From: Gallionellaceae bacterium
GTDB taxonomy: Bacteria; Pseudomonadota; Gammaproteobacteria; Burkholderiales; Gallionellaceae
DNA length: 64,000 nucleotides
Assembly (NCBI GenBank): GCA_027448945.1
Contig: DAIDMQ010000033.1
Coordinates: forward strand, 1-64,000
Direction of reading: 5' to 3'
The notes beneath the pieces were generated by a model. It saw nothing but the letters and a program-made list of their open reading frames with translations, was not told the origin of the DNA and ran no database searches. Positions 1-9,740 of the stretch are shown here, one piece after another (positions within the stretch are counted from its first letter, which is position 1; each line of letters starts with the position of its first letter). The position numbers and the translations under genes are program-made.

Positions 1-2375
1 GTGTTCATCGCCGCATTGTTGGAGGTAATGGTGCCAGCGCTGCCCAACGACACATGTCGTGCCGATTTCAGGGTCAGGGTGCTGGCGCTAGCTGAATTTT
101 CGGTGATGGCGGCATTGACCAGTAGATCGGAATTGGCGCCCGAAGCAATGACAGTGATATCGCCGCTGGCGGTCAACGGGGCGTTGAGAGTTACACCGCC
201 GCCATAAACGCTGATCGGCCCAGCAATGCTGGTGGTGGCGCTAACGGTTACATCGCTGCTGCTGCCGACGCTGTAGACCGTATCGCCAGCCAGGCCGGTC
301 CCTGTGTATTGGCCGATGGTGAGGCCGCCGAGGTTGGCGATGCTCTTGACCACCACGCCGCTGTAGCTTCCGCTGAGGGTGAAGTCATTGCTGGCCAGCG
401 TCCCGTTCCAGACAAAGGGGCTCGGGAAGCTGCCGCCATTCGGGGCGATGGTCAGCGTGCCGGTGGTGGTGATCGGCAGGGCGCCGACGCTGGTGCCGGC
501 GATCAATGTGACATTTCCGCTGCCGGCATTGATGCTGCCCGTTCCATTGGTGTCGATACCATTGGTGCCACCAGCGCCGTTGCCGGCCCACAGCAGCACA
601 CTGCCACCGCCGGTGCTGACGGCCCCCCGGAAGTCCATGGCGTTGAGGTTGCAGCAGCTGCTGCCGATACTCGGACCGTCGCCCACCGTCAGGCCATTCC
701 AGGTGTTGGTGCCATTGGCCGTGTTGCTGCCGCCGGCCCAGAAGTGGCCACCATTGGTGGTGATGTTGCCTAAGAGGGATACGCCGCCGTCGTTGTTGGT
801 GTTGTCGTAATCGGACCAGAGCACCACATTGAGTTTGCCGCTGCCACTGGCCGTGATGGTGCCCTGGTCTATGACCCGGCCTGTGCTGCGCAGGGTCAGC
901 GTGGCATCACCGCCCGACGTCTTGGACAGAGTGACGCCGCTGTTCAAGGTGAGGGTACCGCTGACGTCGTCGAGTACGCTGGTGCCGGTGTTGAGCGTGC
1001 TGGCGTAGCTGTCCGCCACGCCCTGCGTGATGGTGACATCGGCGGGGTCGAGATACCACAAGCCGCCCGTGCCATGATCCGCGCCGGCATCGACATGGGC
1101 ACCGGCGATATCGACCGTGTGGCCCGAGGTTTCAACCCGGCCGCCGTTGCCGCCCACGGCACCACCACGGGCGAGGATGGTGCCCAGCGCCGTCGTTTGT
1201 GATAAGGGATTGCTCACGTCGGACCACAACACGACTGTTCCGCCATTACCGTTTTGCGTGGCGCTGGCATCTATGGTGGCGCTTTGTTGCATGGTGACGG
1301 TGGCTGCTTGCGGGATTACGCCGCTGCCTTGCCAACCGCCGCCGATGTTGACGCTGCCGCCGCCGGTGGCACCGGTGGCGTTGATCTGTGCGCCATCAAG
1401 TATGGCCACATCATGCCCTGTCACCACGACCTGCCCGCCTGTTCCGCCGGGCGACGATACATCCAGTGTGCCGCCTGCATTCACAATGCCTGCGGCTGTT
1501 CCGGCCGAGAGGGTGATGACACCGTTTTGGTTGGTGATGGTTTGTGCTTCGAGGATGCCGGTGTTGTTGACGACGCTGGCCAGCAGTGAATTGGCGGCAC
1601 CTGCCGTTAAGGTGATTGCGCCGCCGTTGGCCTGGATGAGGCCGCCGTTTTCGGCGAGGTTGTTGAGTGTGCTTTGGTCAACTTGCAGGTGAACCAGGCT
1701 GTTGCCCGCAAAGGTCAGGGTGACGGCATTGCCTGCGGCCAGCCCCACTGCGCCGCTCGGGGCGGCGATGCTGCCGGTGTTGCTGACGGTGTTGCCGATG
1801 AAGGCGACGTAGCCGCCATTGGCGGTGTTGATTACACCTTGGTTGATCACGTTGCCGGTGCCGGTGCCTGCAAAGCTGATGCTGTTGTTGCCCAGATTGG
1901 CGTCGTTAAAGTCCAGGGTGGAGGCAACCAGTCCGCCCACGTTGACTTGTGCGCCTTGGCCGAACAACACGCCATTCGGGTTGATGAGCCAGACTTGGCC
2001 GTTGGCATTCAGGTGGCCGAGAATTTGCGAGCCGTTGGTGTCGAAGATGCGATTGACGGCGATGGCGCTGGCCGAGGGTTGCAGGTAGTTGACGGTTTCG
2101 GTGGGGGATACGTTGAAGGTTTGCCAGTTGAGCGAGAGGGTGTTGCTGCTTTGATTGATGTTGGTGGTGCTGCCCGATTGGGAGATGCTGCCGTTCCCTG
2201 AAGTAACTTGGCCGCCGGTTGGGGCCGCCTGGGCTAGTTGTGCTATGGCTAAGGCAAGTGTGCCTATAAGTAATTTTCGCTTGGCAGTTCGCTTGCCTCG
2301 ACCTTTGGCGACCTCGGAAACTGGGACCCATGTATTGAGCGCGTAACTCCAGATAGTTCGGAAAATACGATTCAA
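1..2375 (-). CDS. TpsA-type filamentous haemagglutinin-like exoprotein (5' part, cut by window edge)
   Basis: One reading frame is open from a TTG at 2375 to the window edge (791 codons seen), so the gene is partial at its 3' end. An in-frame TAG lies just upstream of the start and an AGGGGAG Shine-Dalgarno precedes it; no ATG or GTG fits. The N-terminus (NRIFRTIWSYALNTW...) is an extended signal peptide region, typical of very large secreted adhesins, followed by a lysine/arginine-rich stretch and a hydrophobic signal core ending AQAAP. Next comes the TPS secretion domain with the NPNGVLFG motif, then Gly/Asn/Thr/Val-rich beta-helix repeats. Such proteins are exported by an outer-membrane TpsB partner; none is visible here. 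The frame is intact across the visible part. The TpsA family assignment is strong; the ligand cannot be inferred. Confidence 0.88.
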   Translation of the reverse strand, partial: MNRIFRTIWSYALNTWVPVSEVAKGRGKRTAKRKLLIGTLALAIAQLAQAAPTGGQVTSGNGSISQSGSTTNINQSSNTLSLNWQTFNVSPTETVNYLQPSASAIAVNRIFDTNGSQILGHLNANGQVWLINPNGVLFGQGAQVNVGGLVASTLDFNDANLGNNSISFAGTGTGNVINQGVINTANGGYVAFIGNTVSNTGSIAAPSGAVGLAAGNAVTLTFAGNSLVHLQVDQSTLNNLAENGGLIQANGGAITLTAGAANSLLASVVNNTGILEAQTITNQNGVITLSAGTAAGIVNAGGTLDVSSPGGTGGQVVVTGHDVAILDGAQINATGATGGGSVNIGGGWQGSGVIPQAATVTMQQSATIDASATQNGNGGTVVLWSDVSNPLSQTTALGTILARGGAVGGNGGRVETSGHTVDIAGAHVDAGADHGTGGLWYLDPADVTITQGVADSYASTLNTGTSVLDDVSGTLTLNSGVTLSKTSGGDATLTLRSTGRVIDQGTITASGSGKLNVVLWSDYDNTNNDGGVSLLGNITTNGGHFWAGGSNTANGTNTWNGLTVGDGPSIGSSCCNLNAMDFRGAVSTGGGSVLLWAGNGAGGTNGIDTNGTGSINAGSGNVTLIAGTSVGALPITTTGTLTIAPNGGSFPSPFVWNGTLASNDFTLSGSYSGVVVKSIANLGGLTIGQYTGTGLAGDTVYSVGSSSDVTVSATTSIAGPISVYGGGVTLNAPLTASGDITVIASGANSDLLVNAAITENSASASTLTLKSARHVSLGSAGTITSNNAAMN

Positions 2376-2505
2376 AAGAACACTCCCCTATAGGCTTAAC
2401 AAACTACTATCCGGTCACTTTTGATAATCTTATGTTGTAAATAAGTCCAACATTAATCTCAATTGCCATTTGAATAGTTGTGTATTGCGACATATTATTT
2501 ATTTT

Positions 2506-2547: not shown

Positions 2548-2555
2548 GCCATATG
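2548..2555. repeat. Left 8-bp target site duplication of the IS1595-type transposon
   Basis: GCCATATG here is repeated exactly at 9216-9223, immediately outside the two inverted repeats. Eight base pairs is the duplication length known for IS1595-family insertions. An exact duplication suggests a recent or at least undegraded insertion. Confidence 0.92.
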
Positions 2556-2582
2556 CGGACTTATGTAGCAGCCGCACAAACC
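2556..2582 (+). repeat. Left terminal inverted repeat (IRL)
   Basis: Begins CGGACTTATGTAGCA and ends CGCACAAACC. It matches the reverse complement of 9189-9215 except at element positions 4, 5 and 16. Similarity stops sharply at 2582. Confidence 0.92.
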
Positions 2583-2636
2583 CCTAACCATCCCTGCGCC
2601 TAAAATGCACCTATCCCTATTGAGCAGGTATGCATC

Positions 2637-3077
2637 ATGGCAGAGTCACACGTTGTCTCAGGTCTTATATCAAAGCGTTCCGAATTAGCAGGCTTGATTG
2701 AACACCACATGCAAGAGATTCATCGCATGGGTGTGGAACTGCAACACCTAGATGCGACCATCAAGCTATTCTCACCAGATTTCGATCTGCGCACGGTGCG
2801 GATTAAACATCACTACAAGAAAAACGCCCACTTCAAGTCGGGCGAATGCGCCAGACTTGTGTTGGATGTGTTGCGAGAGTTTGGATGCGCAGTGTCCACC
2901 GAGGACGTGGCTCTGGCGGTACTCAAAAAGAAAGGGTTGGACTTGAGCAACAAAGAGGCCGTGGTGTTTTTCAAGAAAGCGACCATCACCGCACTACGTC
3001 ATCAAGCCAATCGAGAGCTGGTTAAGAACACGGGCATTGCACCCGATGGGGTGACGCTACTCTGGCAGATAAACTAA
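2637..3077 (+). CDS. Transposon accessory protein of unknown function (146 aa)
   Basis: I do not recognise a named family. The ATG at 2637 follows a GAGCAGG Shine-Dalgarno-like stretch, and a TAAAAT at 2601-2606 could be a -10 element within the transposon end. The first 45 residues are helical and likely coiled coil. Residues about 70-135 (LVLDVLREFGCAVSTEDVAL...) resemble a winged-helix DNA-binding fold, with many basic residues. There is no signal peptide or membrane segment. It converges on the transposase with a 4-nt overlap of stop codons (TAA at 3075-3077 and TAG at 3074-3076), so the two are packed like parts of one element. A role as a transposition accessory or regulatory protein is inferred only from position and basic character. 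Confidence 0.6.
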   Translation: MAESHVVSGLISKRSELAGLIEHHMQEIHRMGVELQHLDATIKLFSPDFDLRTVRIKHHYKKNAHFKSGECARLVLDVLREFGCAVSTEDVALAVLKKKGLDLSNKEAVVFFKKATITALRHQANRELVKNTGIAPDGVTLLWQIN

Positions 3078-4096
3078 GCCGCCAAGCGTTCTTCTTGACG
3101 CTTGTTACCCTGCCAGTAACCGCACCAGTCACGATTGGTTAACGTGCGGGCGCACTTCTTCACGATGTCGGTGAATATCTTACCGTTCGCCCAACGACGC
3201 GTATCTTCACGGTATGCCGCTTCGTTAGCGTAGTTGGCAAGATACAGATTACCGAACTTGTGGACTTGCCCGTACTGCATACGACGAAAGCGCGCAAAGT
3301 AGCTTTCAGCAAGATTGTTGGTTGTGCCATCGTCAGCGCGGTACTCAACGCTGTGGTTGACGCGGCGGGTATCAAACTTGGAATGGAGTGGGTCGTAAGC
3401 ATTGGACTCATCGGCACAGATGGTTGAGCCTTTCTGCACATAGGATTCAGCAAGGTTGCTAACATCGGTTTGATTCTCGCCTTTGATGACGAAGGTCAGC
3501 GTTCTAACTGCACCAGCCGCCAGTTCCGCGCACTTCTGGCGCATCACGAATACGCAACGCTTGTTGGGCTTCTGGTTCACTGCCAAGCGACGGTCGATAC
3601 GGTCTGACTTTTTGTTCTTCGGGCGAATGTGTCCGTTGACGTATGCGCCGTCCATGTGGACTTCACCTTCTAGTTTTTCCATTTCACGCTGTTCCATCAA
3701 CGATTCACGAATCTTGTGCGCGAGCACGAAAGCGGTTTTGTACTGCACGCCGAGGTCACGCGCCAATTGCAAAGCGGATAGACCTTTCACTGCGTTGGTG
3801 TAGATAGCGATGGCAGCGAGGTACACGCGCAGCGGCAGTTTGTGAAAGGCGAAGATTGTTCCACTGGTTACAGAAAAGGTGTGGCTGCAATCCTTGCACT
3901 GCCATTGCTTACGGGTAGGCTTAAAGTAATGTTTGCCGACTACGCCGCACACTGGACAAGTCACTTCCTCACCCTTACCCCAGCGCACTTCTTTGAATAC
4001 CTCAAAGGCTTGCTGGTTCGTCATCTCCATGACCTTGCGCACAGAGAGCGTGCGGGCTTTGGCAGAGAGTAGGAAGTGTTGGGACATGGCAATCAA
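3074..4096 (-). CDS. IS1595-family (ISXO2-like) transposase
   Basis: DDE-type transposase that moves the surrounding element. An N-terminal zinc ribbon is visible (CPVC at residues 47-50, CKDC at 67-70), then a helix-turn-helix-like segment (LSALQLARDLGVQYKT), then the ISXO2-like catalytic domain: HMDG (D149), CADES (D229) and NNLAESYFARF (N260/E264). Length, 340 residues from the TTG at 4096 or 337 from the ATG at 4087, fits the family; the ATG is the more likely start. The frame is intact, and with intact ends and target duplication the element looks potentially active. Its promoter region overlaps the dyad array shared with the divergent LexA-like gene, so co-repression is plausible. Confidence 0.93.
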   Translation of the reverse strand: MIAMSQHFLLSAKARTLSVRKVMEMTNQQAFEVFKEVRWGKGEEVTCPVCGVVGKHYFKPTRKQWQCKDCSHTFSVTSGTIFAFHKLPLRVYLAAIAIYTNAVKGLSALQLARDLGVQYKTAFVLAHKIRESLMEQREMEKLEGEVHMDGAYVNGHIRPKNKKSDRIDRRLAVNQKPNKRCVFVMRQKCAELAAGAVRTLTFVIKGENQTDVSNLAESYVQKGSTICADESNAYDPLHSKFDTRRVNHSVEYRADDGTTNNLAESYFARFRRMQYGQVHKFGNLYLANYANEAAYREDTRRWANGKIFTDIVKKCARTLTNRDWCGYWQGNKRQEERLAA

Positions 4097-4125
4097 TAGA
4101 GAATGATTTTTATGATTAATTGGAT

Positions 4126-4198
4126 CATATAGAATGATTGTTCTATATGAAAGAGCTTTCTATAAATATTTTATTAACGAACGTTTATTCTTTATACT
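4126..4198. promoter_or_regulatory. Divergent promoter/operator region with three GAA-N6-TTC dyads
   Basis: The 108-bp gap between transposase and LexA-like gene contains GAATGATTGTTC (4132-4143), GAAAGAGCTTTC (4149-4160) and GAACGTTTATTC (4179-4190). The first sits inside a longer palindrome with 9-bp arms (CATATAGAA / TTCTATATG, 4126-4149). A TATACT -10 hexamer at 4193-4198 puts the predicted transcription start at the ATG at 4205, so the downstream mRNA may be leaderless; no Shine-Dalgarno is present. The last dyad lies between the -35 and -10 regions, a usual repressor position. Binding by the adjacent LexA-like protein is inferred. Confidence 0.55.
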
Positions 4199-4204
4199 GT
4201 CGCC

Positions 4205-4780
4205 ATGCAAAATCGTGATACCGAATACCTTGGAAAGCTTCAGGACTACTACGCCCAGCATCGGGTGTTGCCATCTTTTACTTCTGTGGCAAAGCTTGTC
4301 GGGTTAAAATCCACGTCGGCGGTGGCGGCGATGGTGAGTCGCATGAAGAGCGAAGGATTTCTGGATCAGGGTGTGGATCGTCGATTACAGCCTGGCAAGC
4401 GGTTCTTTGAACGTGAGGTAGCAGACAGCGTGCGCGCAGGCTTACCACAGCCTGCCAATGACACCATAGGGCATGTTGTATCAGTTGATGAGCATCTAAT
4501 CAAAAGCCCATCGCGGACGGTGATGCTGACGGTCAAAGGCGATTCAATGATGGATGCGGGTTTGTTGCCTAGTGACACAGTAATCGTGGAGCGTGGCGCA
4601 CCTGCCAAGCCGGGCGACATTGTGGTTGCCATCGTAGATAACGAGTACACGGTCAAGTATCTGGCACATGACAAGAATGGCTTCTACCTGAAGCCGGGCA
4701 ACAGGGCTTACCCGCCCATCAGGGCTAAAGAAAACCTTGAAATTTATGGGTTGGTGGTGGGTAGCTTTAGAAAATACTAA
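4205..4780 (+). CDS. LexA-like self-cleaving repressor (S24 peptidase family)
   Basis: Predicted transcriptional repressor that cleaves itself when RecA is activated by DNA damage. Residues 5-60 form a LexA-type winged helix (VLPSFTSVAKLVGLKSTSAV). The C-terminal S24 domain has Ser114 in GDSMMDAG and Lys151 in YTVKYL, 37 residues apart as in E. coli LexA (S119/K156). An Ala78-Gly79 cleavage site lies 35 residues before the serine (34 in E. coli), in a UmuD-like context (RAGLPQPA). All parts needed for autoproteolysis are therefore present. It heads the cargo operon, 25 nt before the next gene. The start has no Shine-Dalgarno and coincides with the predicted transcription start. A chromosomal lexA presumably lies elsewhere; this copy belongs to the transposon. 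Confidence 0.88.
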   Translation: MQNRDTEYLGKLQDYYAQHRVLPSFTSVAKLVGLKSTSAVAAMVSRMKSEGFLDQGVDRRLQPGKRFFEREVADSVRAGLPQPANDTIGHVVSVDEHLIKSPSRTVMLTVKGDSMMDAGLLPSDTVIVERGAPAKPGDIVVAIVDNEYTVKYLAHDKNGFYLKPGNRAYPPIRAKENLEIYGLVVGSFRKY

Positions 4781-4805
4781 TTGTTCAATTACTGATAGGT
4801 ATTTT

Positions 4806-5552
4806 ATGTCTCAAATTAGCCGTATTGAATGGACTGAAGCAACGTGGAATCCCACCGTGGGCTGCACAAAAATTTCTGCTGGCTGCAAGCATTGTTATGC
4901 AGAGTCAATGGCAGTACGCCTAAAAGCTATGGGTACACCAGGCTATGAAAATGGATTTAAGCTGACCATATTGCCGGATCGCTTGAGCGAGCCGTTACGC
5001 CGTAAAAAACCAACTGTTTACTTTGTTAACTCAATGTCCGACCTCTTTCATAAGAGCATACCGGATAGCTACATCGATCAAGTGTTTGACACGATTGCAC
5101 GCAGTCCTCAGCACACGTTTCAAGTTTTGACCAAACGTGCAGAGCGCATGGCTCAATATTTTCGCAATCGCACCGTGCCGAGCAACGCTTGGTTGGGCGT
5201 GACCGTTGAAGACCGCAAAGATGGCGTACCAAGAATTGATAGGTTGCGCGAAATCGACGCATCTATTCGCTTCCTGTCGGTTGAGCCGCTTCTCGAAGAT
5301 ATTGGCGAAATCAACTTGACCGATATTCACTGGGTAATTGTTGGTGGTGAGTCAGGACCAAAGGCACGTCCAATGAAACCAGAATGGATTGAGCCGATTC
5401 GTCAGCAATGCGAAGAAGCTGGCGCAGCATTCTTCTTCAAACAGTGGGGCGGATGGGGAGCGGATGGCGTGAAACGCGCGAAGAAACAAAATGGTCGTCA
5501 GCTTCATGGAAGAACATGGGATGACATGCCAACTCTACAGCAGTCCATATAA
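4806..5552 (+). CDS. Phage Gp37/Gp68 family (DUF5131) three-Cys-motif protein
   Basis: The start is set at ATG 4806 because the conserved N-terminus (IEWTEATWNPTVGC) begins there; a longer frame from 4737 would overlap the upstream gene. The protein has 248 residues. Cysteines C20, C27 and C30 (C-x6-C-x2-CY) suggest a bound metal or an iron-sulfur cluster of radical-SAM type, but no function is established. Other conserved features are YFVNSMSDLFH, FQVLTKRAERM, WLGVTVED, RFLSVEPLLEDI and VGGESG, all typical of the family, and FKQWGGW near the C-terminus. The neighbour TcmP begins 3 nt after its stop, and these two families are known to occur side by side, which implies a shared pathway. The Shine-Dalgarno (ATAGG) is weak, so translational coupling is likely. 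Confidence 0.9.
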   Translation: MSQISRIEWTEATWNPTVGCTKISAGCKHCYAESMAVRLKAMGTPGYENGFKLTILPDRLSEPLRRKKPTVYFVNSMSDLFHKSIPDSYIDQVFDTIARSPQHTFQVLTKRAERMAQYFRNRTVPSNAWLGVTVEDRKDGVPRIDRLREIDASIRFLSVEPLLEDIGEINLTDIHWVIVGGESGPKARPMKPEWIEPIRQQCEEAGAAFFFKQWGGWGADGVKRAKKQNGRQLHGRTWDDMPTLQQSI

Positions 5553-5555
5553 CAA

Positions 5556-6830
5556 ATGGCATCTGACGATAAATATTTTTGGCAAATTGGCTCGCCGCCA
5601 CCTGTGTTGGATCGGCATAGTCAAACTAAACACAATGTCGTCGAAGATTACGTTACGCGTTATGTTCTAAGACTGATGGCTCAAGCAAATATTCCTGAGC
5701 TTCGCCTATCACTAATTGATGGCTTTTGTGGCGGCGGATGCTATCAAACTGAAGAGGGGAGCTTGGCAGATGGATCACCACTATTGATGATGCGTGCTGT
5801 GCGCGCGGCACGTGCACAGCTTAACGTAGGTCGTCGTAGTCTCCGTAACGTCAATGTGGAATACCTATTCGTTGATATTCTACAAAGCACCACAAATCAT
5901 TTACGTCATTGGCTAGATGCAAAGCTGCAAGAAAACGTAATTGAGCTTGACGATTATCGCAAAGTCGAAATTATTACCAATAATTTTTTTCAGGTGCTGC
6001 CATACCTTCTTGACAAGATTAAGCAACGTAAAATGGGTGAACATGCCATTTTTGTTCTTGATCAGTACAGTTACAAAGATGTTCCGTTGCATGAAATATC
6101 CAGCATTCTAAAAATCCTGAAGGGTGCTGAAGTTATTATGACTTTCAATGTTGATAATCTCATCACGTACATATCAGAGCACGCATCCAATCGTAAGGCA
6201 GTAGAAAATATTGGACTCGACAAATATATCCCTTGGTCTGAAATAAAGACGCTTAAATCTGCCCAAAAAAGAGAGTGGCGGAAGATTATTCAGCGGCATC
6301 TTGCGCATGGCATAAAGGTTGAAACAGGAGCAGAGTTTATGACTCTGTTTTTTATAAAGCCGCATGGGACAAATTCGTGGGGTTATTGGTTGATTCATTT
6401 ATCGAACCAATATCGTGCTCACGAAGTTATGAAATCCGTTCATTGGGAGCATGCAACCGATTTTGGACATGAACTTGAGCCTGGTGTATTTGTACTCGGA
6501 TATGATGCAAATGATGACAGCGATTACACAGGGCAGGAAACATTTGAGTTTGGCGAAAAATCGAAAGAGGCTTGTATTAATGGTGTAAGTGAGCATTTTG
6601 GAAAAACTATATATGCTCTTCACAAACCAATTCGTGTGGGAGAGCTTTTTAAGGGATGTGTCAGCCAATCTACTGCTGCTGAAATACATCTTTTAGAAGC
6701 GACAAAACGACTGCACGAATCTAAAGATATCGTTGTTGTATCCAAAACTGGCACAGTAAGACGCCCCTCAAAAGCGTACAAGGCTGATGACATAATCGAG
6801 CCATCCAAACAAAGAAGACTTATTCGTTAA
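5556..6830 (+). CDS. tcmP: Three-Cys-motif partner protein TcmP
   Basis: TcmP proteins are found beside three-Cys-motif DUF5131 proteins and have no settled biochemical role. This one is full length (424 aa). Residues 52-61 (LIDGFCGGG) resemble the glycine-rich SAM-binding motif I of Rossmann methyltransferases, VEYLFVDI (101-108) looks like motif II, and FVLDQYSY (166-173) occupies the motif IV position, so a nucleotide- or SAM-dependent fold is a reasonable inference. GSPLLMMRAV is another family block. The gene follows DUF5131 by 3 nt and precedes the methyltransferase start codon by 13 nt. Its stop (TAA 6828-6830) is in the same frame as the downstream methyltransferase body, with no further stop between them. 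Confidence 0.87.
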   Translation: MASDDKYFWQIGSPPPVLDRHSQTKHNVVEDYVTRYVLRLMAQANIPELRLSLIDGFCGGGCYQTEEGSLADGSPLLMMRAVRAARAQLNVGRRSLRNVNVEYLFVDILQSTTNHLRHWLDAKLQENVIELDDYRKVEIITNNFFQVLPYLLDKIKQRKMGEHAIFVLDQYSYKDVPLHEISSILKILKGAEVIMTFNVDNLITYISEHASNRKAVENIGLDKYIPWSEIKTLKSAQKREWRKIIQRHLAHGIKVETGAEFMTLFFIKPHGTNSWGYWLIHLSNQYRAHEVMKSVHWEHATDFGHELEPGVFVLGYDANDDSDYTGQETFEFGEKSKEACINGVSEHFGKTIYALHKPIRVGELFKGCVSQSTAAEIHLLEATKRLHESKDIVVVSKTGTVRRPSKAYKADDIIEPSKQRRLIR

Positions 6831-6843
6831 CGAAAGACAAAGA

Positions 6844-8024
6844 ATGATCACCGCCGCAAGCACAGCCAGCCAGCCAGCCAGCCAGCCAGCCACGGGACGG
6901 CAACTAATTCAAATAGTTCCGTTCATTCTCCAAAACAACCATTAATATTCTCGTTTTTTTCTGGTGCAGGTTTTCTGGATTTGGGGTTTGAAAAAGCAGG
7001 TTATGAAATTGGCTACGTCAATGAAGTTCATAAGCCATTTCTGGATGCATACAAATTTTCCAGACAAAAAATGGGTACGCCACAGCCTACTTACGGCTAC
7101 TTTGAGGGGGATGTTGAATCCTGCCTATCTGGTGAGGAATCTGAGCATTTAAGCAATTTAGTCAGCGCAGCAAAAAAGGATAAGCAGATTGTCGGCTTTA
7201 TTGGAGGCCCGCCATGCCCTGATTTTTCTGTGGGCGGTAAAAATCGCGGGCAGCATGGCGAAAATGGCAAGCTATCCAAAATTTACGTTGATCTAATCTG
7301 CAAACAAAAGCCAGATTTTTTTATTTTTGAGAATGTCAAAGGACTGTACCGCACTGCGCGGCATCGAGAGTTTTTCGAGGGTCTTAAACGCCAACTTGAT
7401 GTCGCAGGATATAGCTGCACAGAGCGGCTAATCAATGCGATTGAGTACGGTGCACCACAAGATCGTGAGCGTATTATCCTTTTCGGTGTTCTACAGCCGA
7501 AAGCAAAAAAGAAGTTAGCCCAGTTTGATTGGCTCGCGCACATGGCGTATCCAGAAGGCAAAGCATTAAGCTACCCGTGGCCCAATGCGCAACCTATCGC
7601 ATTTAATCGTGCGCAGCCTGACGACATCCCCGTGGCATTAACTATTCAGCATTGGTTTGAAAAAAACAATGTTGAACAACATCCTAATGCACATCACCAA
7701 TTCAAACCAAGAGCCGGACTAGCAAAATTTGAAACCGTCTATGAAGGCGACGATAGCAAAAAGTCATATAAGCGATTGCATCGCTGGCGTTATTCGCCTA
7801 CCGCCGCTTACGGAAATAATGAGGTACATATTCATCCGTACTTGCCACGTCGTATTTCTGTAGCGGAGGCTTTGGCTATTCAATCCTTACCACAAGAGTT
7901 TGAGCTTCCGCCAAACATGACCCTTAGCAATATGTTCAAAACAGTTGGAAATGGCGTGCCATTTTTGGCGGCTCACGGCCTAGCCCTAGCTATATTGGAC
8001 TTTCTGAAAGGAGTAAGCAAATGA
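6844..8024 (+). CDS. C5-cytosine DNA methyltransferase, apparently phase-variable and OFF
   Basis: Modifies cytosine in a specific DNA site, probably protecting host DNA from the next gene's nuclease. All key motifs are present: I (FSFFSGAGFLDLG, codons 6948-6986), IV with catalytic Cys (GGPPCPDFS), VI (FENVKG), VIII (QDRERI), IX (RRISVAEALAIQ) and X (VGNGVPF). The frame holding motif I is open from 6831 but contains no ATG, GTG or TTG before motif I; TTG 6981 would delete it. The only good start, ATG 6844, reads into (CAGC)7 and stops at 6943. Adding one CAGC unit, or removing two, joins ATG 6844 to the whole enzyme (394 aa with one unit added) with an SQPA-repeat leader. It overlaps the endonuclease gene by 4 nt. 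A repeat-count error in assembly is the main alternative. Confidence 0.85.
6863..6892 (+). repeat. Tetranucleotide tract (CAGC)7.5 at the start of the methyltransferase gene
   Basis: Seven full CAGC units plus CA. It lies 19 nt after ATG 6844 and about 55 nt before motif I of the methyltransferase. Tetranucleotide tracts at this position are the classic slipped-strand switch of phase-variable modification genes. Seven or six copies give OFF; eight or five give ON. Confidence 0.92.
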
Positions 8025-9130
8025 GATTGACTGCCAGCAATATTGTTAAGGCTATATCTAACCTTCCAAAGAATCAGTGGTTTGAATATGTAAGCGCACG
8101 AACTAGAACGCAAGTCCGTTTCAAATCTGTGGCAGGCCCGGAAGGTCCAATAGCAGTTGAACGGAGAAATCCAAACAAGAAGAACGGTTTCGCATCAAGT
8201 GTAACTTTATCTACTTCTATGATTTGGAGAATCGCCAATGCATGTATGAAAAACACACCAATCAATGTTGACCGTGTTTTAGGCGCAAGCTACAACACCA
8301 GATCGTTGCTTGAAACATTATTAGCGCACACTCCAGAATTCTATTGGTGTACACCAGGTCGCATTGAATTAAATAACAACTCTCAAAAAATTAAACCTGG
8401 GCACAAACATATTCTTTGGATGCCAGACAACCCGCATACAAATGGGGTTCTAGTTGAACATAAGCTAATTGATAACCAAGCGATTTCTGAAATACCTTCA
8501 CAGAGCATTTTCTATGAGTCGCTAACAATACCTGATATGTTGCCACCGGAAATAAGTATTGACGTTGATGTTAAAAGACGGCATTTACAAATGCAAATTC
8601 TACTCATAAAGATTGGTCTCCAACTTGAATTTAGAACTTGGATTGCACACAACGATAAGGGTTATGAATACGCAGGGAAAAAAATCGGAGAACTGGAAGG
8701 TGTAATCGCCAGATTATCAGATGAAAAGGTGGTTTCGTCCTATCAAGAGGGAATAGATGCCGCAAAGTTGATTGATTGTATTTGGTTCAAGAATGGCAAA
8801 CTAATGCCAGCCGTAATAGAAGTGGAGCATAGCACTGGCGTAACATCCGGGTTAACTCGCATGAAAAAGTTTCAAGATGTAGGGCCGCACCTTGCTGACA
8901 TTCGTTGGGTTATTGTTGCAGCTGATGAAGATCGAGCAGAGGTAATTCGTAAAGCCAACGCTCCTCAGTTCCGATCACTCAATACAAAGTATTTTTCATA
9001 CTCGGCAGTTGAAGAGCTTTATAGTTTGTGCATGAGACGTAATCTCTCAAAACATGCCGTGAACGAAGAATTTCTGGATTGTTTTATGGAGCCGTGCTTA
9101 ACTAGCCAGACGGTTTCACCAATGCATTAG
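8021..9130 (+). CDS. Putative type II restriction endonuclease
   Basis: Predicted partner nuclease of the upstream C5 methyltransferase. Its ATG overlaps the methyltransferase stop (ATGA, 8021-8024), so translation is probably coupled. The protein has 369 residues. A PD-(D/E)XK-like core is suggested by LIDCIWF...LMPAVIEVEHSTG around residues 250-275, where an acidic residue is followed by E-x-E, then GLTRMKKFQDV; similar EVEH-containing segments occur in predicted restriction enzymes. The N-terminal 200 residues are unassigned and probably recognise DNA. Codon use is AT-rich like the rest of the cargo. The recognition site is unknown. The nuclease call rests on context and a short motif, so it is moderately confident. 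Confidence 0.68.
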   Translation: MRLTASNIVKAISNLPKNQWFEYVSARTRTQVRFKSVAGPEGPIAVERRNPNKKNGFASSVTLSTSMIWRIANACMKNTPINVDRVLGASYNTRSLLETLLAHTPEFYWCTPGRIELNNNSQKIKPGHKHILWMPDNPHTNGVLVEHKLIDNQAISEIPSQSIFYESLTIPDMLPPEISIDVDVKRRHLQMQILLIKIGLQLEFRTWIAHNDKGYEYAGKKIGELEGVIARLSDEKVVSSYQEGIDAAKLIDCIWFKNGKLMPAVIEVEHSTGVTSGLTRMKKFQDVGPHLADIRWVIVAADEDRAEVIRKANAPQFRSLNTKYFSYSAVEELYSLCMRRNLSKHAVNEEFLDCFMEPCLTSQTVSPMH

Positions 9131-9188
9131 CTCAACGCTTCACCGAAACCAAGATGAATAAAAATCAATCAACATATTGTTTTTAAAT

Positions 9189-9215
9189 GGTTTGTGCGGT
9201 TGCTACATAATACCG
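9189..9215 (-). repeat. Right terminal inverted repeat (IRR)
   Basis: On the plus strand it starts GGTTTGTGCGG and ends CATAATACCG; its reverse complement matches IRL at 24 of 27 positions. It lies 58 bp after the stop of the endonuclease gene. Confidence 0.92.
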
Positions 9216-9223
9216 GCCATATG
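9216..9223. repeat. Right 8-bp target site duplication
   Basis: GCCATATG, identical to 2548-2555, abuts the outer end of the right inverted repeat. Confidence 0.92.
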
Positions 9224-9740
9224 TACCATTTCATAATCTGCAGCACATAATCCGCCAAAGTTTCCAACTTTTAAAACCAGAATAAACACAGATTCCCATA
9301 CCTATTCCACAAAACTGTACGCAATCCGTCAACTGAAGCGCATGGATTTATGAACCGCAATTGCGTGGGACTGCCCATGCGGCAGCCAGTTTCATCGGCT
9401 TAGATTCGTGGGATGCCCCTTCACGAAATACTTTAGCAAGGACTCATCTTGCTAATTTAGTAATGATGGGAATGCCCTTGCGGCATTGCGGGTATGGTTA
9501 GTTTCTTTTGACGAAGCAAAAGAAAGTGACTAGCTGTCGGGCTACCCCCGACAAACTATCAGCACCTCATCAAGAAATTTAATCCGCGGATACTCATTGT
9601 TGGGTTACGCAAAAAAAAACGCTAACCCTACGAAAATCATGGTTCGACAGGCTCACCACGAACGGCCTTGGCGTTATCCTCGCCACGCGAGGCAATTTAC
9701 AACGGTTGGATTCCGGCCTTCGCCGGAATGACGAGAAAAC
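9224..9740. repeat. Gene-free spacer with several extragenic palindromes
   Basis: No convincing gene is seen. Several short dyads occur: TTTCTTTTG/CAAAAGAAA (9502-9525), TGTCGGG/CCCGACA (9535-9553), a GGGTTACG...GCTAACCC pair (about 9602-9628), GTTCG/CGAAC (9642-9663) and ATTCCGGC/GCCGGAAT (9710-9729). The last two resemble short interspersed palindromes common between genes in proteobacteria. The 9710-9729 hairpin lies just past the stop of mutY and may end its transcript. Confidence 0.6.

Follow-up and report, generated by a model that had tools for sequence, protein, structure and literature searches.

The stretch analyzed here (the window) comprises 64,000 nucleotides of contig DAIDMQ010000033.1 from a Gallionellaceae bacterium, and its subject is an intact transposon of the IS1595 family that carries defense-type cargo between positions 2556 and 9215 (Table 1). 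A preliminary description had proposed a complete IS1595-type transposon with exact limits, which our analysis confirmed: the two 27-bp inverted ends are identical at 24 of 27 positions, against a best inverted 27-mer by chance of 18/27 in 60 shuffles of both 300-base end zones, and the 8-bp target duplication GCCATATG is exact. Target duplications of 8 bp are a trait of the IS1595 family, and the window copy combines them and the terminal inverted repeats with a transposase that bears the IS1595 zinc ribbon and ISXO2-like domains expected of this family (E value of 1.4e-45 for PF12762). The element is single copy in the 2.45-Mb source genome. The gene identities given previously (transposase, LexA-like repressor, DUF5131, TcmP, C5 methyltransferase, and nuclease) agree with the profile matches, and the gene layout is as described; the label of one tight operon, however, had hidden a methyltransferase frame that is broken at a repeat tract. 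The gene orfA, the repeat switch, and the family-wide pattern reported below are additions to that description.

Table 1. Features of the transposon and its target duplications, with positions in the window
Feature	Position	Strand	Evidence or remark
Target duplication, left copy GCCATATG	2548..2555	.	Same as 9216-9223
Left terminal inverted repeat, 27 bp	2556..2582	+	Family core CGGAATTATGTAGCARCCGCACAA
orfA, 146 aa, family backbone gene	2637..3077	+	Homologue in 47/50 transposase loci, adjoining transposase
IS1595-family DDE transposase, 336 aa	3074..4084	-	PF12762, PF12760, and NF033547, all above cut-off
ATAGAATGATTGTTCTAT palindrome, likely LexA-like repressor operator	4129..4146	.	Between divergent transposase and repressor genes
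Putatively self-cleaving LexA-like repressor, 191 aa, with Ala-Gly bond and Ser/Lys pair	4205..4780	+	PF00717 (S24 peptidase), E 1.4e-27
DUF5131 protein, 248 aa, invariant Cys x6 Cys x2 Cys	4806..5552	+	PF07505, E 9.2e-110; PDC-M30B/M41B
TcmP, 424 aa, class-I methyltransferase-like fold	5556..6830	+	TIGR04474, E 1e-58
C5-cytosine methyltransferase frame, OFF as assembled	6831..8024	+	PF00145, E 8.6e-47; PADLOC MTase_II, E 1.7e-171
33-codon frame from nearest ATG, crosses tract and then stops	6844..6945	+	Sequence
(CAGC)7.5 simple-sequence tract, predicted phase-variation switch	6863..6892	+	Sequence
Type II restriction endonuclease, 369 aa	8021..9130	+	PADLOC REase_II PDLC03534, E 3.6e-129
Right terminal inverted repeat, 27 bp	9189..9215	-	Pairs with left end
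Target duplication, right copy GCCATATG	9216..9223	.	Same as 2548-2555

The last two cargo genes pair a C5 methyltransferase with an endonuclease, as in a type II restriction-modification (R-M) system. From the TcmP stop codon to position 6981, which lies inside motif I, the methyltransferase frame contains no ATG, GTG, or TTG, and the ATG at 6844 is in a different frame. Because no such in-frame start precedes motif I, the methyltransferase reads as OFF, and as assembled it should not be translated in active form, rare start codons aside. Apart from this, the frame has no interruption before its stop codon and retains its family match, and the repeat unit, which is not divisible by three, lies in the 5' coding region of the R-M gene. 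The nuclease gene begins within the methyltransferase stop codon (ATGA) and is preceded by an AAGGAG of its own; residues D252, E267, and E269 of its product are invariant in 5/5 aligned sequences. This protein has no Pfam or NCBIfam match, no match by sequence among solved structures, and a poor structural model (mean pLDDT, 58).

Relatives of this R-M pair were found on four viral contigs, at 53 to 61% for the nuclease and 61 to 71% for the methyltransferase. On all four, the methyltransferase gene opens with a normal ATG adjacent to motif I and has no tract, and neither a transposase nor an orfA match was present in the 9 kb examined. The tract leader is therefore not inherent to this R-M lineage and appears to have been gained within the transposon. 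No other element shared the methyltransferase-nuclease pair of the window: the nuclease was found in none of the 50 transposase loci described below, where the methyltransferase was matched only at 28 to 31% in L051 and L076, and a search of 274 genomes of the class returned the window copy only. Plasmids yielded 150 records matching the nuclease, none covering 80% of it, and the best 20 of the 150 were partial matches at 32 to 36%.

We consider it probable that the element is an IS1595-family cargo transposon whose R-M system is predicted to be repeat switched and to be OFF in the window. Under this model, a fixed backbone of two ends, orfA, and transposase is joined by a regulator slot divergent from the transposase and then by swappable defense genes, which in the window are DUF5131-TcmP followed by the type II R-M pair. 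The LexA-like repressor would sit on the palindrome, and DNA damage would relieve repression of the cargo and possibly of the transposase. Slipped-strand copying would alter the number of CAGC units and hence the frame, turning the methyltransferase ON or OFF, as the sequence and the natural variants of relatives suggest. As the nuclease start lies in the methyltransferase stop codon, nuclease expression would probably fall when the methyltransferase is untranslated.

A transposase scan of one genome per species across 84,980 species returned 50 loci (these and the other loci named below are numbered with the prefix L), and at the order level, 8 of 300 genomes, the source genome included, had a transposase match at an E value of ≤1e-40. 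Limits could be set for 28 elements, namely, that of the window, 25 from the 50 loci, and L024 and L031 from the order-level scan; for two of these loci, L038 and L040, the longer stretches L029 and L030 were used. The other 25 loci had an end off the contig, no recognized end, or mismatched flanks (L047 and L059). The delimited elements span 3.5 to 15.4 kb and have in common orfA, the transposase, the same ends, and 8-bp duplications, which are exact in 25/28 (L024 matches at 7/8 positions and L043 at 6/8, and L048 ends at contig ends). The family is widespread, and its hosts include Gallionella, Sideroxydans, Methylotenera, Methylobacter, Nitrosomonas, Undibacterium, Acinetobacter, and Pseudomonas. 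R-M or Ssp genes are present in 22 of the 28 elements: type III R-M in L031, L037, L066, and L067; type IIG or IIG-like genes in L024, L030, L034, L045, L046, L049, L053, L069, and L079; type II genes or a methyltransferase in the window, L033, L041, L043, L051, L065, L068, and L076; and SspC/D/E in L058. The cargo of L049 and L079 was assigned by similarity to scanned proteins only. Our best reading is that the transposon lineage moves swappable, often putatively phase-switchable R-M systems.

Perfect tracts of at least four copies numbered 11 in the 205.6 kb within the 28 elements, compared to 2 in 377.1 kb outside them (L030 was cut short of its right end in this count). The units inside were of 4, 5, or 7 bp, none a multiple of three, and those outside were of 3 and 6 bp. 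When one-ended loci were added, a tract lay in or before the R-M gene in 15 of 26 R-M-bearing elements, the latter being the 21 delimited R-M elements (L058, with its Ssp genes, left aside) together with L042 (a fragment identified by eye), L044, L047, L059, and L061. The contig-edge tracts of L050 and L057, which have no gene behind them, were excluded from this count, as were second views of counted loci (L018, L020 to L022, L028, L038, and L040), and L067 and L079, with fewer than four repeats, were counted as tract-free. Tracts in the family accompany type II, IIG, III, and type-I-like genes, and 13 of the 15 are at the gene start. The upstream start is in frame (ON) in 5/15 and out of frame (OFF) in 10/15, as expected of a random frame. 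Related type IIG-like proteins in L034, L046, L049, and L061 (59 to 75% identical) have their tracts at the same place, but the unit is of 4 bp in L034 and of 7 bp in the other three, so that the tracts turn over at a constant position. As a control, 60 N6/N4 and C5 methyltransferase loci from 61 genomes of the window's genus contained no tract; the difference from 15/26 is significant by Fisher's test (P = 3.5e-10), a value to be taken with caution because the elements are related to one another, come from more genera than the control, and alone include type IIG.

Two pairs of elements represent natural variants in repeat number. L066 and L067 lie in two Acinetobacter species at differing sites, with the duplications GAAAAAAG and TAATTTTC, respectively, and over 6.5 kb they are separated by 2 substitutions and a single 65-bp length difference that corresponds to 13 repeats of 5 bp. 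A type III methyltransferase of 641 aa is encoded in one frame in L067 and is split in L066. These near-identical elements at differing sites are the natural evidence that suggests transposition of the family. L069 (Pseudomonas) and L079 (Tolumonas) are about 89 to 94% identical in two long pieces, and their tracts are 16 bp apart, or 4 repeats of 4 bp; L069 has a single 1056-aa type IIG frame, and the frame of L079 is split at the tract. What both pairs document is movement and a change in repeat number from one species to another, rather than switching within a single culture.

Several observations weigh against the proposed model. Six of the 28 delimited elements (L029, L048, L052, L054, L064, and L070, whose proteins were scanned in part) gave no R-M or Ssp match, 11 of the 26 R-M elements have no four-copy tract, and 4 of the 15 elements with tracts belong to the one related type IIG group. 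The tracts of L066 and L069 lie about 450 and 660 nt within the gene, respectively, rather than at its start, and in L079, the transposase is broken and further gaps are present, which makes that pair less clean. A strict link is further weakened by L036, in which two unit-7 tracts (positions 6413 to 6443 and 8763 to 8797), uncounted above, lie beyond the element end at 3177. The control covered one genus and two methyltransferase families, with orphans included and no type IIG, whereas the elements come from many genera. In the window itself, repeat change was not seen, as no second isolate or copy of the element was found; the OFF state could reflect dead-gene decay or an assembly slip; and the nuclease has its own ribosome-binding-like site, so that an OFF methyltransferase with an ON nuclease would be dangerous.

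A broader proposition, which we put forward as possible but doubtful, is that the lineage has built in phase switching by inserting R-M genes of unrelated kinds downstream of a start codon and an unstable repeat. Copies would then mostly land OFF in an unmethylated host and spare it, and some descendants would turn ON later, producing a bet-hedged defense and shifting methylation in environmental bacteria. An alternative to our main model, that R-M genes are prone to repeat tracts in general, independently of the transposon family, seems to us unlikely. It can draw on the tracts outside the element in L036 and on the repeat tracts given in PMC7394358 for type III mod genes (17.4%) and type I systems (10%). 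However, 15/26 exceeds 17.4% (binomial P = 4.5e-6, for R-M types and tract definitions that differ), and both the tract-free methyltransferase loci of the same genus and the tract-free viral relatives of the window R-M family argue against it.

Less likely still is that DUF5131-TcmP and the R-M system form one defense machine under SOS control, to which the tract would be incidental. The preliminary description had suggested that the DUF5131/TcmP pair travels with R-M as a mobile unit, and it is true that all six DUF5131-bearing elements also carry an R-M gene, that within the transposon family the pair is seen only with R-M, and that it lies directly upstream of the R-M gene in the window, L031, and L034 (with the tract intervening in L034). 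The association is not obligate, however. Both genes occur in 5 of the 28 delimited elements (the window, L031, L034, L046, and L049), with DUF5131 alone in L030; 16 of the 22 elements with R-M or Ssp genes have no DUF5131; and in L046 and L049, the pair is a distant version located elsewhere in the cargo. On plasmids, three of the four records opened show DUF5131-TcmP after a tnpS-like recombinase gene in a Tn4651-type layout (named so in one), and the annotation shows no R-M gene within about 11 kb of the pair. In the Pseudomonas plasmid loci L005, L006, and L007, this layout lies near positions 4236 to 6317, with the pair right behind the tnpS-like gene. DUF5131-TcmP is thus best read as optional cargo of the transposon lineage. 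The least probable alternative is that the methyltransferase is simply inactivated in a decaying transposon, the tract being an ordinary frameshift or an assembly error without any switching, a view that fits the missing in-frame start and the failure to find a second copy of the element in the source genome or in the 274 class genomes but that is countered by the intact nuclease and the otherwise open methyltransferase frame, by the recurrence of tracts with different R-M types in both ON and OFF frames, and by the change in tract and frame between the near-identical L066 and L067.

The cysteine pattern of DUF5131, which we take to be radical-SAM-like, is invariant in 5/5 aligned sequences. 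The structural model of TcmP (pLDDT, 73; pTM, 0.76; from 4 sequences) retrieved mostly class-I methyltransferases among the best 50 Foldseek rows, the first being Trm1 (E value of 1.8e-6); because TM-scores to the query are near 0.3 and the root mean square deviation is large, the model points to a fold class only. A GMT-like winged helix-turn-helix match below cut-off suggests that the C-terminal part is perhaps a winged helix. By sequence, TcmP had no match in solved structures, and DUF5131 had two chance-level rows; TcmP also had no relative in viral contigs and one weak partial match in phages. Both partners match PADLOC PDC-M30 profiles (M30B, E value of 7.7e-115; M30A, E value of 1.1e-23), and our guess is a radical-SAM and methyltransferase-like pair acting in defense.

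The repressor has the features of LexA and S24 self-cleaving repressors, namely, the Ala-Gly bond and Ser-Lys pair, kept in 6/6 aligned LexA-like sequences, and a putative N-terminal DNA-binding domain (TIGR00498 fell just under its cut-off, and the LexA_DNA_bind match was also under cut-off). The palindrome ATAGAATGATTGTTCTAT recurs as an identical 18-mer in L034 and L037, and in L061, it reads TATAGAACGATCGTTCTATA, with both arms changed in matching fashion, so that an operator-like palindrome is present in four elements; L043 and L026 gave no match to it in this form. The protein probably binds this palindrome between the repressor and transposase genes, would thereby regulate its own gene, and DNA damage may also control the transposase. 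The earlier proposal of a complete transposon with defense-type cargo and a LexA-like regulator is supported, and a conserved palindrome lies beside the regulator. Of 27 elements, 4 have a LexA-like gene in the slot divergent from the transposase (in L043, at a distance of about 1.4 kb), 12 have a gene of a DUF6471-type cluster (one member of which was profile tested), and 5 have another small gene. At L026 (8815 to 11032), a distant IS1595 transposase (38%) lies near a 70%-identical LexA-like gene, and the regulator may therefore move between subfamilies.

The preliminary description had also asked whether the same ends occur elsewhere and with what cargo. A family of related elements was found, and the same ends do not always come without the cargo, as L034 carries LexA-like, DUF5131, and TcmP genes. 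Cargo homologues do occur outside such ends, as R-M relatives on the four viral contigs and as DUF5131-TcmP on plasmids, but LexA-like, DUF5131, and TcmP genes lie inside family ends as well. We claim no empty site: the right flank was searched in the 61 genus genomes, the insertion point itself did not align, and among the matches listed, those other than a dispersed repeat start about 525 bases or more into the flank. The dispersed repeat, of about 55 bp (window positions 9495 to 9552), occurs at many places in genus genomes at 90 to 95% identity. On the other side of the insertion, positions 1 to 2376 (minus strand) contain a long haemagglutinin-like frame of the secreted adhesin type, judged by eye. 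Plasmids gave transposase matches in 18 records, all at <60% identity (E value limit of 1e-40), and a sequence search of solved structures with the transposase gave only chance-level rows. One orfA homologue had weak winged-helix matches below cut-off; we would guess that orfA is perhaps a small DNA-binding accessory protein.

Other cargo is varied. L058 (1557 to 11549) carries SspC, SspD, and SspE, presumably a phosphorothioate defense, on the same transposon type. The cargo of L064 (7027 to 11577) includes a PAAR-motif gene, and this element has two small gene families in common with L052 (8647 to 13122), a possible secretion-system cargo. An uncharacterized set in L029 (3606 to 14235) combines an MvdD-like ATP-grasp gene with a 1734-aa helicase-Toprim protein. 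In L035 (1438 to 9676), a four-gene run with a 1669-aa protein adjoins the transposase; a Wadjet-like identity for this set was a guess that found no PADLOC match at 1e-30.

An R-M gene that enters a new host poses a problem in that the host genome, still unmethylated, can be cut by the nuclease before it is fully protected, and R-M cargo that is often under a random switch would be a simple, testable answer. The family would also extend phase-variable methylation, studied mostly in pathogens adapted to a host, to free-living bacteria, among them iron oxidizers (the window and Sideroxydans) and Accumulibacter. In addition, it provides exact boundaries for a set of mobile defense modules, including DUF5131-TcmP and several uncharacterized cargo operons.

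IS1595 family insertion sequences with passenger genes were reportedly described by Siguier, Gagnevin, and Chandler in 2009. The present elements resemble the insertion sequences of that family in their transposase domains, 8-bp duplication, and passenger-gene concept and differ in their large, modular, R-M-dominated cargo, orfA backbone, and predicted repeat switches. A literature search by title found no R-M systems or repeat switches on IS1595 elements, with subscription papers, the 2009 IS1595 paper included, mostly beyond its reach. Tn4651-type Tn3 transposons of Pseudomonas plasmids (pCAR1 and others) likewise carry DUF5131-TcmP, but there the pair is downstream of a tnpS-like recombinase gene, with no R-M or LexA-like gene annotated beside it. 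DUF5131 and TcmP partners are already catalogued by PADLOC as candidate defense systems (PDC-M30, named in PMC10855318, and PDC-M41); those candidates were obtained through guilt-by-embedding, whereas here the pair lies in a transposon with R-M. Tn7-like transposons, according to PMC8649781, are also a defense-enriched family in which R-M is commonest, and they use Tn7-type machinery in place of IS1595; the word "phase" does not occur in the main text of that paper. Phasevarions, as presented in PMC7394358, share with our elements a repeat tract in a methyltransferase gene and ON/OFF control by frame. Here, in contrast, the tracts are on a transposon and accompany type II C5, IIG, III, and type-I-like genes, and in the window, the type II pair stands alone and its nuclease is a separate protein.

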